A stretch of DNA of 37,298 bases from Cryomorphaceae bacterium (GTDB lineage: Bacteria > Bacteroidota > Bacteroidia > Flavobacteriales > Schleiferiaceae). The notes under the pieces are model-generated. The model saw nothing but the letters and a program-made list of their open reading frames with translations, was not told the origin of the DNA and made no database searches. Where the stretch lies: the NCBI GenBank assembly GCA_020832345.1, contig JAFIEY010000015.1, forward strand, positions 1 to 37,298, given 5' to 3'. Position 1 is the stretch's first letter. Every line of letters starts with the position of its first letter. Both the position numbers and the translations under genes were made by a program. This document shows, in pieces, positions 391 through 32,036 of the stretch.

Positions 391-1359
391 TTACCGCTTT
401 ACCGTCACATTGACTTCCAGAGAAACTTTTTTGCCCAAACGCTCTTCTATTTCTTCTTTGATTTTGTCTATTTCTGAATCACTGAGGGTGTGATCTGAAA
501 TGAGACGAACTGAAATGGTCAAGGGGTTTAACCCCAGCATTTGAACATCTTTTATTTGGATTTTATCATCGCGCTCCCATGATTCAATGCGCTCAACAAC
601 ATTGCTTTCATACACCATTTTGTAAAATCCCAAACCAAGGGGAATACTGAGTAACAGAACAATTGCAGCAGAAATAAGTAAACCCCTCTGCGCCAAACGG
701 AAAGGGCTAAAGCCGAGCAATAAAAATGTAAAAGCACCCGCCAACACCATTCCCGCCAGGTTGGTCAGCAATAATAGGGTAGCGCCAAAAAAGATTCCCC
801 CATCAAACCAACCGAGTCCAATACCCGCCACCGCCAACGGAGGCACCAATGCAACGGCAATGGCCACACCGGCTAAGGTTTTGGCCACTTCCTCCCTCGC
901 ATGTGCGTAAGCACCTGCAACACCTGAAAATACAGCAATCCCCAAATCCAGTAGATTCGGACTCGTTCGGGATAAAATCTCCGCATTGGGTGCATTGAGC
1001 GGTGTAAGCAAGGTAATAAGAACCGAACATAAAAACGCAAGACCCAACCCACTGGCAATGGTGTAAATACTGTTTATTATCAATCCCTTATCCTGCCGCA
1101 AGGTGCCCATACTCAAGGAAATAATAGGCGACATCAATGGCGCGAGAATCATGGCACCAATGACCACAGGAGCGCTATTGGCAAATAAACCAAAAGTTGC
1201 CAAAATGGTGGACAATACCATCAACACCAAATAACTTGCCTTGGGCGTGGCATTTTCTCTTAGTACTTGAAATAGTTCTTTAAACTCTTCCGTGGAAGCG
1301 TGGAGAATAAATGGCAAGGGTCCGCGGGTAAGTTCGGAAACTGTCTCCCCTCGGGGCAA
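391..1359 (-). CDS. DUF389 (TIGR00341-type) multi-spanning membrane protein, probably the C-terminal half of a split gene
   Basis: 322 residues if read from TTG at 1357-1359. The sequence has the DUF389 hydrophobic core: six or more membrane segments (from LVLMVLSTILATFG to about residue 245), the family patch APVVIGAMILAPLMSP and a soluble C-terminal domain (about 250-322). The molecular role of the family is poorly known. The reading frame is continuous upstream, without any ATG or GTG, back to a TAA at 1435-1437. That TAA ends the lipid-kinase-like ORF in the same frame, and TTG is the only possible start in between, with no clear ribosome binding site. I read 391-2250 as one ancestral gene of about 618 residues cut by a nonsense codon; a two-gene arrangement starting at TTG is the alternative. 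Confidence 0.75.
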   Translation of the reverse strand: MPRGETVSELTRGPLPFILHASTEEFKELFQVLRENATPKASYLVLMVLSTILATFGLFANSAPVVIGAMILAPLMSPIISLSMGTLRQDKGLIINSIYTIASGLGLAFLCSVLITLLTPLNAPNAEILSRTSPNLLDLGIAVFSGVAGAYAHAREEVAKTLAGVAIAVALVPPLAVAGIGLGWFDGGIFFGATLLLLTNLAGMVLAGAFTFLLLGFSPFRLAQRGLLISAAIVLLLSIPLGLGFYKMVYESNVVERIESWERDDKIQIKDVQMLGLNPLTISVRLISDHTLSDSEIDKIKEEIEERLGKKVSLEVNVTVKR

Positions 1360-1434
1360 TGAACCCGTTTTAAAAACTTCATTGGCCTCCGGTTCATTTT
1401 CGCTGTCTTTTAAAAAATCACCCGTAAATACTTT

Positions 1435-2250
1435 TTAATGCTTTTTCCGAACTTCGAGTTGAAGTGATTTGGCGGAAAGCGTAATTCCATCTTCTGCAAA
1501 TTCAAAAGACTCCGGACAATCAAGTGTTAAAGCGTTGGTTTTGATATGTGCTGCGTAGGGTGGCAATCGTTTCTCTTCCCACCAAGAACGAATGGCGAAA
1601 AGCATCAAACCGCTAACACTTCTCGGACTGATGAGTAAAGCGTGCAGCATTCCGTCGTTGATAAATGAGTTTTGAAGTACCAAACGAGACAGCAAAGTGC
1701 TTCGTCCGTGTTGCACGATAATTACCCCCGAGGCCGCAGTTTTCAGTTTTTTTCCATCGGCAGTTTCCAGATTCAATTGAAAGGGGTGCAGTCTGGAAAA
1801 CCGTTGAAACAGTTTACGCATACGCATAAAAAAGCCCGTTTTTTCCAAGGGTTTTGCTGCGGCCAATTGGAATGCATGACCAATAATCAGGTTGTTGAAA
1901 ACTGGACGGTCGTTGCAGTACATCACATCGATTACCTGCGGTTTTTCTTGTTTCTTAAGAAAATTAATTGCTTTTTGAAGGTTGTAATCTACGCCCAGAC
2001 CCGTGCAAATGGCCCGTGCATTGGGATGGGGTAATATTCCCAAAGTGATTTTCTTTTCCGCAAATACCGTCAGCAATTCTTTGAGCTGATTGTCGGAAGC
2101 ATAGGTTAAAACGCAATCACCCTCCTTAAGAGCACCTTCAAGTGCATCAACAATGGGAAGCTGATCAGAAACTATATCCTCAACAAGAGGCAAAACTTCC
2201 TCTCGTACAATATCCTTTTTATCTACATCAAAAAGCAAGCGGAAGTTCAT
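1435..2250 (-). CDS. Degenerate diacylglycerol kinase / YegS-like domain protein, N-terminal half of a split gene
   Basis: 271 residues, ATG at 2250. The overall pattern follows lipid kinases of the NAD-kinase-like fold: an N-terminal nucleotide-fold half with LGILPHPNARAICTGLG where active enzymes have a P-x-G-T-x-N-D-F-A-R-x-L-G motif, then a beta-sandwich half with NDGMLHALLISP and a DG near the end (FEFAEDGITL). The GGDGT loop of active kinases is missing: the equivalent stretch reads TYASDNQLKE. Catalysis is therefore unlikely and a regulatory or binding role is more plausible. It ends with TAA at 1435-1437, in frame with the downstream DUF389 region and 75 bases before that region's only possible start. 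Confidence 0.6.
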   Translation of the reverse strand: MNFRLLFDVDKKDIVREEVLPLVEDIVSDQLPIVDALEGALKEGDCVLTYASDNQLKELLTVFAEKKITLGILPHPNARAICTGLGVDYNLQKAINFLKKQEKPQVIDVMYCNDRPVFNNLIIGHAFQLAAAKPLEKTGFFMRMRKLFQRFSRLHPFQLNLETADGKKLKTAASGVIIVQHGRSTLLSRLVLQNSFINDGMLHALLISPRSVSGLMLFAIRSWWEEKRLPPYAAHIKTNALTLDCPESFEFAEDGITLSAKSLQLEVRKKH

Positions 2251-2316: not shown

Positions 2317-4032
2317 TTATGACCACCAAGACTCTACATCGGCCAATTGTAAAGCGGCAATTTCGAGTTTGTTCTTTTTCCTATATCCATTGAGCTTTTG
2401 GTGCACCTGGGTAGGTTTTAACGCTTGCAACTCTTCCACCGATGGGTAAATTTTCATTACGTGTGTCACCCATTCTTCAGCAATGCCCAACGCGATAAAA
2501 TCTGCCGGTTTAGGCCCGGTGGCAACTTTTTCCGGACGCATTTGCGGGAAAAACAACACTTCTTGGATGCTGCTTTTGTTGGTGAGCAACATGGTTAATC
2601 GGTCGATGCCGATGCCCATCCCTGAAGTTGGGGGCATACCGTATTCCAATGCACGTAAAAAGTCGTGGTCGATAAACATGGCCTCATCGTCGCCTTTTTC
2701 GCTGAGCTTTAATTGCTCTTCAAACCGCTCGCGCTGATCGATGGGATCATTGAGCTCGGTGTAGGCATTGGCCACTTCTTTTCCGTTGATCATCAACTCA
2801 AACCTTTCGGTCAAATCCGGATTACTACGGTGGCGCTTACACAGCGGTGACATTTCTTTGGGATAGTCCGTAATAAAAGTCGGTTGGATATAATTTTTTT
2901 CGCATTTCTCGCCAAAAATCTCGTCGATGAGTTTGGCCTTTCCCATGGTTTCATCGGTTTCTACACCCAAGGTGCGGCACAGATTTCGCAGTTCCACCTC
3001 GTCCATTCCCGTTATATCGTGTCCCGTATGTTCTTTAATGGCATCGAGCATACTGATGCGCTTAAAGGGCGCTTTAAAGTCGATGGACTTATCGCCAACC
3101 TGGACCACAGTATCCCCGTTATTCACATCTTTTACAACTTGCTCTAGCATCTTTTCGGTAAACGCCATCATCCAAATGTAGTCTTTATAGGCCACATAAA
3201 TTTCCATAACGGTAAACTCCGGATTATGGGTGCGATCCATGCCTTCATTTCGGAAGTCTTTGGCAAACTCATATACGCCGTCAAAACCGCCGACAATAAG
3301 TCTTTTCAGGTATAATTCATTTGCAATACGCAGATAAAGTGGAATATCGAGCGCATTGTGATGGGTGATAAACGGACGTGCTGCGGCCCCTCCAGGGATG
3401 GGTTGCAGAATAGGTGTTTCAACCTCCACGTATTGGAATGCGTTAAAATAATTCCGCATGCTATTGATGATGCGCGAACGCTTGAGGAAGGTTTCTTTTA
3501 CCCCAGAATTTACCACCAAATCGACGTACCGCTGACGATACCGCTGTTCGGGATCCGTGAAAGCATCGTGGATATTTCCATCGGCATCGGTTTTGACCAC
3601 CGGAAGCGGACGAAGGGATTTGCTCAAAAAGACAAATCGCTTAACCGCGATAGATATTTCACCCATTCGGGTAACGAATACCGAGCCTTCCACGCCGATA
3701 AAATCACCAATATCGGTAAGTTTTTTATACACCTCATTGTAAAGCGTTTTATCCTCATCGGGGCATATTTCGTCCCGATTAAAATATAGCTGAATCCGCC
3801 CGGTATGATCTTTCAAATCCGTGAATCCCGCCTTGCCCATAATGCGTTTGCTCATGATGCGACCCGCAAGCGATACCTGCTCGTAATCTCCGGGCTTAGT
3901 TTCAAAATTTTTGAGTATGTCTTCGGCGTAATGGGTAACCTCATAACCTTCTGCCGGATACGGTTCAACACCTAAATCACGAAGTTTTTGAAGGGCTTCC
4001 CTCCGTTGAATTTCCTGTTCCGAAAGTTGCAT
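2317..4032 (-). CDS. lysS: Lysyl-tRNA synthetase, class II
   Basis: 571 residues, ATG at 4032. It charges tRNA-Lys with lysine in the cytoplasm. An N-terminal OB-fold (about 55-150) binds the anticodon. The class II core follows with motif 2 (FRNEGMDRTHNPEFT, near residue 260) and motif 3 (GMGIGIDRLTML, near 475). It is about 65 residues longer than E. coli LysS because of a C-terminal extension (KPTQVHQKLNGYRKKNKL), as often seen in Bacteroidota. It lies on the same strand downstream of clpX, 86 bases away, so read-through from the clp block is possible. Confidence 0.97.
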   Translation of the reverse strand: MQLSEQEIQRREALQKLRDLGVEPYPAEGYEVTHYAEDILKNFETKPGDYEQVSLAGRIMSKRIMGKAGFTDLKDHTGRIQLYFNRDEICPDEDKTLYNEVYKKLTDIGDFIGVEGSVFVTRMGEISIAVKRFVFLSKSLRPLPVVKTDADGNIHDAFTDPEQRYRQRYVDLVVNSGVKETFLKRSRIINSMRNYFNAFQYVEVETPILQPIPGGAAARPFITHHNALDIPLYLRIANELYLKRLIVGGFDGVYEFAKDFRNEGMDRTHNPEFTVMEIYVAYKDYIWMMAFTEKMLEQVVKDVNNGDTVVQVGDKSIDFKAPFKRISMLDAIKEHTGHDITGMDEVELRNLCRTLGVETDETMGKAKLIDEIFGEKCEKNYIQPTFITDYPKEMSPLCKRHRSNPDLTERFELMINGKEVANAYTELNDPIDQRERFEEQLKLSEKGDDEAMFIDHDFLRALEYGMPPTSGMGIGIDRLTMLLTNKSSIQEVLFFPQMRPEKVATGPKPADFIALGIAEEWVTHVMKIYPSVEELQALKPTQVHQKLNGYRKKNKLEIAALQLADVESWWS

Positions 4033-30948: not shown

Positions 30949-31416
30949 TTAATTACCCAAAAACTCCAGTTTCTCCGACTTTATCAGACGATCTTTCGTG
31001 CCGGGAAATTCTCCAAGGAGATCTTCAAGGACAATCACAGTATCGGATACTTCCCAAACAACGTATCGTGCAAAACTGGGCTTATCGTTTTTTTCAACTT
31101 TCTTTCCAGGTGAGCCATTGACCATGTAACCTGACCACATCTCGAACTGAATACACAGCGTGTCGTTTTGTATCCGCCAGTCTTTTATCAGGAACGACAC
31201 GTTAGGTCTAATTCCAACTTTTCCATTGACATTGGTTTCTAGTCCAAAAACACCCGTGCGGTCGTTATGAAACTCCATATACCATCCTTGCACTTGTCCA
31301 TTATCCACTGGTTTTTTCCAATTTCCGACAAGACTTTTTTCTTTTTCTTGAAGAGATGATGTTTTTGTGTTGCAACCTAAAAGCATAAGCAAGAAAAGGC
31401 AGGAAAGTTGTCTCAT
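30949..31416 (-). CDS. Hypothetical lipoprotein
   Basis: 155 residues from ATG at 31416 (MRQLSCLFLLMLLGC), with a clear lipobox (LLGC). The mature part contains LVGNWKKP and repeated short strands like lipocalin-type lipoproteins, but no family is recognised. It starts 11 bases after the shortened YggS gene, and could be the last gene of the DUF2024-marR-yggS transcript. Confidence 0.7.
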   Translation of the reverse strand: MRQLSCLFLLMLLGCNTKTSSLQEKEKSLVGNWKKPVDNGQVQGWYMEFHNDRTGVFGLETNVNGKVGIRPNVSFLIKDWRIQNDTLCIQFEMWSGYMVNGSPGKKVEKNDKPSFARYVVWEVSDTVIVLEDLLGEFPGTKDRLIKSEKLEFLGN

Positions 31417-31427
31417 GAATTTCGAGG

Positions 31428-32036
31428 TTATAAAGTTAAACAATTTTGTAATAAAAATGAAATATCTTTTTGTAGCATTTCATCTTGTATGGATTTTAGA
31501 AGTCGAAAGCACTTTCTTACCTGTTCTGTTTTTACCGAAAAAAGCCCAATGGTCATTAGACCTTTTATATTTAGTCGGTCAAACTGTTTTACTTGTAGTG
31601 CAAATTCCAAAGCCATTTCGGGAGAAATACCAAACTTGCTTTCTTCATACGAAGTGTTTACTTGAATAAAAATATCCAATGACTTGTTTTCAAACCCTAA
31701 AGGCTTTTTCAATTTTTCAGCTAATTCAAATCTTTTAACCGATTGTATGCAGTCGGCATACTTGATAACTTCCTTGATTTTATTTGTTTGTAAATGCCCG
31801 ATAAAATGTTTTTGATGCGTAACAGCTTTGAGTATTTCAACCTTTTCAATTAGTTCTTGCACTTTGTTTTCACCAATTATGGTTTCTCCTGATTCAAGGG
31901 CTATTTTAATATGCTGTACTGAAACTGTTTTGGTTGCTAAAAGAAGTTTGATTTCGTTATGGTTTCGACCCGAATTCTCGGCTGCAATTTTAATTCTGTC
32001 TTTAATTTTAGTAATATTCTCAACGATAAAACTCAT
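31428..32036 (-). CDS. YggS-family PLP-binding protein, shortened at the C-terminus
   Basis: 202 residues. The PLP lysine lies in LLLATKTVS and the family pattern continues (IGENKVQEL, FIGHLQTNKIK, IFIQVNTSYEESKFGI, LNIKGLMTIG). The usual last 30-35 residues with the phosphate-binding LSMGMS-D and VRVG motifs are absent: the protein ends ISFLLQNCLTL just before the lipoprotein gene. This looks like a deletion; PLP binding may be lost. Its ATG overlaps the marR stop (ATGA), so it is translationally coupled to the regulator. Confidence 0.75.
   Translation of the reverse strand: MSFIVENITKIKDRIKIAAENSGRNHNEIKLLLATKTVSVQHIKIALESGETIIGENKVQELIEKVEILKAVTHQKHFIGHLQTNKIKEVIKYADCIQSVKRFELAEKLKKPLGFENKSLDIFIQVNTSYEESKFGISPEMALEFALQVKQFDRLNIKGLMTIGLFSVKTEQVRKCFRLLKSIQDEMLQKDISFLLQNCLTL

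Follow-up and report, generated by a model that had tools for sequence, protein, structure and literature searches.

Organization of the locus

The locus lies in a window of 37,298 nucleotides (the whole stretch of DNA analysed here) from the genome of a Cryomorphaceae bacterium. Reading the region on both strands placed both pieces of an interrupted coding sequence on the minus strand, a strand that the earlier note does not give, downstream of a lysine--tRNA ligase gene (Table 1). The first piece, kinase-like, runs into an in-frame TAA, after which the same frame continues for a further 347 codons (394-1434) before it closes at 391-393. This bears out the claim of an earlier note on this DNA that the two open reading frames share a frame. 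The 25 codons after the TAA begin KVFTGDFLKDSENEPEAN and end at the TTG at 1357-1359. The same note had held that the second piece has no ATG or GTG start, only a TTG. This is correct for the part ahead of the membrane core, but a GTG and an ATG do occur at codons 70 and 72 after the TAA, both within the first transmembrane helix.

Table 1. Features of the interrupted gene and its upstream neighbour in the window
Feature	Coordinates	Strand	Remarks
Lysine--tRNA ligase, upstream neighbour on the same strand	2317-4032	-	gap of 66 bases to the kinase-like ATG
Kinase-like N-terminal half of the fused protein (DgkB/YegS lipid-kinase fold)	1438-2250 (open reading frame including stop, 1435-2250)	-	271 codons/amino acids; ATG 2248-2250
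In-frame TAA	1435-1437	-	sense codon in all five closest relatives
Interdomain linker, TAA to TTG	1360-1434	-	25 codons; no significant decay
TTG, sole listed start codon before the transmembrane core	1357-1359	-	codon 26 after the TAA; codon not conserved; TTG also in G004
DUF389 membrane half with cytosolic tail	391-1359	-	322 amino acids if started at the TTG; stop 391-393; PF04087 E 2e-40; model pLDDT 80

A scan for promoters and terminators gave counts near those of shuffled sequences, with no strong minus-strand site between the two halves. Just upstream of the TTG (1340-1385, minus strand) an ATG that is out of frame precedes a T TTA AAA run. A -1 slip on this run would enter the DUF389 frame; the run was noticed by eye, nothing else supports it, and it is probably a chance occurrence. 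Elsewhere in the window, a YggS-family (TIGR00044) open reading frame of 202 amino acids (31431-32036, minus strand) matches only positions 1-190 of the 229 in the model and is missing the conserved C-terminal end of full-length relatives; the next open reading frame (30952-31443) overlaps its end. A second YggS-family match, at G000:C134, has an open frame of 232 codons, and the frame at 31431-32036 is probably a truncated second copy.

The parent gene and its relatives

The gene from which the two pieces derive encodes a single fused protein of 618-620 amino acids; the earlier note had guessed at homologues of about 618 residues, a figure that is exact. Five relatives align end to end in the frame of the window, and residues agree both before and after the TAA, which goes beyond chance. 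In this full-length alignment G001 and G009 have one open frame straight through, and G004 is open up to the end of its contig, its last 33 residues matching the end of another contig. As the earlier note had held, the linker that follows the stop in the window looks ordinary.

Relatives were collected with two patterns from the DUF389 half, an approach that favours fused copies, and the best 80 of 107 loci were kept. Among these 80 the frame is uninterrupted in 75, four of which are cut by contig ends, in agreement with the earlier reading of a fused gene cut by one in-frame stop. The genus and family searches, which made no use of those patterns, gave six strong matches, and all six have both halves in one frame. 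A contig scan with the kinase half of the window alone confirmed no relative, whereas relatives were confirmed with the full-length alignment. Two separate genes with a normal start for the DUF389 part, the arrangement that would speak against a split fusion, were not seen among copies close to that of the window; the ordinary DUF389 paralogues that do stand alone reach only about 31-43% identity.

The five interrupted loci among the best 80 of 107 comprise two with one in-frame stop each, in the genus genomes G002 (L153) and G003 (L158), and three with frameshifts. The latter lie near residue 147 in Cyclobacterium qasimii (L210) and near residue 50 in a Crocinitomicaceae metagenome-assembled genome (MAG; L220), both in the kinase-like half, and near residue 590 in the C-terminal tail in a Proteobacteria MAG (L215); the L220 and L215 frameshifts were judged by eye from three frames. 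The 80 loci come from Cyclobacterium, Algoriphagus, Pontibacter, Echinicola, Methylophaga, Alkalimonas and many MAGs, and the genus neighbours of the window are labelled Cryomorphaceae or Flavobacteriales. Counting the genome of the window each time, the gene is present in all five genomes of the genus, in 6 of 88 of the family and in 4 of 395 in an even draw of the class.

The kinase-like half

No Pfam model matches the kinase-like piece of the window, and the NCBIfam lipid-kinase models match it weakly, below their cut-offs (TIGR00147, 34.4 bits against 118.65). The description of the first piece as kinase-like nevertheless holds at the level of fold. A profile of the family matches 4wer (E 2.4e-12), and in the predicted structure of an intact relative, L152 (mean pLDDT 82.7), residues 1-285 superpose on DgkB, YegS and sphingosine kinase 1, with a Z score of 19.6 against 2qvl (3.5 A, 254 residues). 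Compared with the DgkB/YegS/BmrU lipid kinases (TIGR00147; 2qv7, 4wer and 3s40), the fold is common over the whole length of the kinase-like half (Z 18-20, about 255 residues).

GGDGT and PxGTxND are the nucleotide and catalytic motifs of the DgkB/YegS lipid kinases. When the fused family is aligned by profile with 4wer and 3s40, only the Asp of GGDGT remains, its glycines being replaced, and PHP stands in place of the second glycine-threonine loop, PxGTxND. Pfam DAGK_cat had no match in any of 38 fused-family members, and the NCBIfam lipid-kinase match was also below the cut-off in the member tabulated. Because the catalytic motifs of lipid kinases are lost from its sequence, the kinase-like half is probably non-catalytic.

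The DUF389 half

The second piece had been assigned to DUF389 in the earlier note, and Pfam agrees: PF04087 matches over its full profile (1-137) with 138.4 bits against a curated cut-off of 23.9 (E 2e-40). The family resembles the DUF389/TIGR00341/TIGR00271 membrane proteins, a DUF389 match being found in all 38 fused-family members and in the window, but here DUF389 is fused behind a kinase-like domain. By contrast, the ordinary DUF389 paralogue of the same genome (L002, 474 amino acids) stands alone and has its own ATG.

Predicted alone, the DUF389 half of the window reaches a pLDDT of 80.3 and is confident from about residue 48. Its predicted core aligns best with FNT channels (Z 11.3, 4.5 A, 200 residues) and then with aquaporins, although this Z score is below the 13 advised for helical proteins. 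In Foldseek the channel-like match, to 3tdx, has an E of 0.1, and the top rank goes to zinc transporters, which superpose very poorly. No internal repeat of the core was found in its sequence. We regard a possible FNT/aquaporin-like hourglass fold of the modelled core as a lead only. The predicted tail of the DUF389 half resembles small alpha-beta domains such as the C-terminal domain of MamB.

Position of the stop and fate of the DUF389 half

In the L152 model the last strand of the kinase-like fold spans residues 255-273. Because the stop of the window corresponds to residue 271, at the end of this strand, it is predicted to cut the protein at the domain boundary. A restart at the TTG (residue 26) would lose nothing confidently folded, since the prediction is confident only from about residue 48. 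The TTG is drawn inside a predicted RNA stem of ordinary strength (z 0.53, not significant), and folding of the RNA near the stop showed nothing unusual in the four segments folded (z 0.17 and 0.53).

Neither half appears decayed on the branch of the window. In a first test with 41 rows the linker of the window ranked 10th from the bottom, against 35th to 38th for its kinase, post-linker and DUF389-core stretches; with rank 38 of 41, the DUF389 core matches intact relatives in conservation. In a wider test with 81 rows the linker after the stop was not significantly decayed (rank 13, z -1.1), and for this reason we do not claim that it is relaxed. Synonymous sites are saturated in most pairs, so that in the dN/dS comparison only the low non-synonymous change, found on both sides of the stop, is informative. 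The DUF389 half and the linker being without significant decay, the data fit a recent stop, continued translation of the DUF389 half and a wrong base in the window alike, and do not separate the three.

In-frame stops in related genomes

Exactly one in-frame stop interrupts the gene in three of the five genomes of the genus (TAA, TGA and TAG, at codons 272, 149 and 96). Besides the window, these are two of the other four genomes, G002 and G003, whose own single stops (TGA and TAG) lie elsewhere in the gene, inside the kinase-like domain and not at the boundary. All three stops spare the DUF389 half, but chance alone would give this in 8% of cases. Taking the window together with the best 80 of 107 loci, the DUF389 half is spared in five of six interruptions (p 0.06, not significant); the idea that all interruptions spare it is weakened by L215, in which the C-terminal tail is shifted.

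As a background for these counts, open reading frames from samples of the five genus genomes (218, 191, 746, 224 and 284 kb, deliberately including the contigs with the fused gene) were compared with each other's DNA. The 141,423 congener-aligned codons contain four in-frame stops and no frameshifts. Three of the four stops fall in the fused gene, which accounts for 3,056 of the codons; the fourth, in G003 (L060), lies directly ahead of a likely ATG. The genome of the window has no other stop and no frameshift in its 18,291 congener-aligned codons. The search was prompted by the stop in the window; with the window left out, two of the three stops of G002 and G003 fall in the 1.7% of covered codons that belong to the fused gene (p 0.0009), and the gene is interrupted in two of four congeners against 3 of 76 other loci, a modest excess (p 0.018). 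Nine further distinct tblastn stops outside the gene, in G001, G002 and G003, were attributed to antisense or non-coding frames or to sequence preceding a start codon, and they vanish once the queries are trimmed to their ATG and overlapping antisense open reading frames are removed.

In the gene tree the copies of the window, G001, G002 and G004 form one clade, in which G002 is sister to the intact G001, and the G003 copy falls in another group. Since they lie on separate branches, the three stops are separate events. The genus neighbours are MAGs, those with stops being fragmented, and the G003 contig has a stated coverage of about 6.5. The G003 copy (L158, on G003:C112) groups with copies from Bacteroidales and Saprospiraceae MAGs and not with those of its own genus, a placement that suggests gene transfer or mis-binning.

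Discussion

We consider it probable that a nonsense mutation split this fused gene, one of several such independent mutations in the genus, probably reflecting relaxed selection on the gene or halves that are separable. The ancestral gene encoded one protein of 618-620 amino acids, in which a DgkB/YegS-fold domain without catalytic motifs is followed by a short linker, a DUF389 multi-helix membrane domain and a cytosolic tail. In the genome of the window TAA would have replaced a sense codon where the kinase-like fold ends, and translation from the normal ATG would now yield a free kinase-like domain with no membrane part. Production of the DUF389 half would then depend entirely on ribosomes restarting, the TTG 26 codons further along being the most plausible site. 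Nonsense mutations would have arisen independently in the same gene of close relatives, and because of them the gene is probably either under relaxed selection in this genus or composed of two halves that need not be joined. As neither half is decayed and the linker is not significantly relaxed, the argument for relaxed selection comes from this recurrence alone. As a mechanism the split is ordinary: single-stop pseudogenes and gene fissions likewise have one in-frame stop and no other damage. They differ from the present case in that independent stops are found here in three of the five genomes of one genus, a recurrence that we find mildly unusual.

The earlier note had offered a recent nonsense mutation, stop read-through or a sequencing error as causes. 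A nonsense mutation is the best supported of these, because the gene has other stops in two of four congeners and such stops are nearly absent elsewhere. An error of sequencing or assembly at 1435-1437, or a minority allele in the metagenome consensus, is unlikely. Such an error would leave both halves and the linker looking as ordinary as they do, and the other genomes in which the gene has a stop are fragmented MAGs, one of them with a low stated coverage. However, errors would not concentrate in the same gene of two other genomes, the genome of the window shows no other stop or frameshift in its congener-aligned codons, and, because three of the four stops among all the aligned codons fall in the fused gene, random error fits the set poorly, as does a changed code. 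A sequencing error in the window alone retains a small share of the probability, and we infer that the organism itself has the stop. A changed genetic code or a suppressor tRNA in the genus could be suggested by three in-frame stops in one gene, but we reject it as highly unlikely, as all three stop codons are involved and other genes of the same genomes end and align normally, with stops nearly absent from them. Programmed read-through, giving a minor full-length form, would agree with a frame and a linker that stay open and ordinary past the stop. It is poorly supported and we judge it very improbable, because the stops involve three different codons at three different places, are missing from most relatives and are accompanied by no unusual RNA folding.

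It is also conceivable, if rather unlikely, that the stop represents a working fission in which both domains still function and the DUF389 half is restarted at the TTG. The stop at the domain boundary, the fully conserved sequence of the DUF389 half and a start that would keep all confidently predicted structure are consistent with this, and the stretch from the TTG to the first helix is, by eye, similar in length to the preamble of the stand-alone paralogue in the same genome. That all three genus stops, and five of six interruptions overall, spare the DUF389 half points in the same direction. However, relatives do not conserve the TTG, which falls within a predicted stem, the stops of G002 and G003 are off the boundary, inside the kinase-like domain, and the overall bias is not significant, the sixth interruption (L215) breaking the C-terminal tail.

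The analysis brings to light a family of DgkB-fold/DUF389 fusions that extends over Bacteroidota and some Gammaproteobacteria. Literature searches on DUF389, TIGR00341 and TIGR00271 turned up nothing on what it does: the domain is named in no title or abstract among the whole-word matches for DUF389, TIGR00341 gave no match, and passages in two of the looser matches concern DUF3893 and DUF3892 instead. Speculatively, the fused family may be a membrane channel of FNT/aquaporin-like shape on which an inactive lipid kinase serves as a lid that senses lipids or nucleotides; this genus would be shedding the lid through independent nonsense mutations, with the channel half still translated from an internal start. 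We regard this as improbable; if it were true, the recurrent stops would expose which part is essential. Automatic annotation, meanwhile, may call two unrelated genes where one existed. The interrupted copies amount to a natural experiment: continued production of the DUF389 half behind the stops would mean that the kinase-like half is a separable module, whereas its absence would mean that this genus can dispense with the gene.
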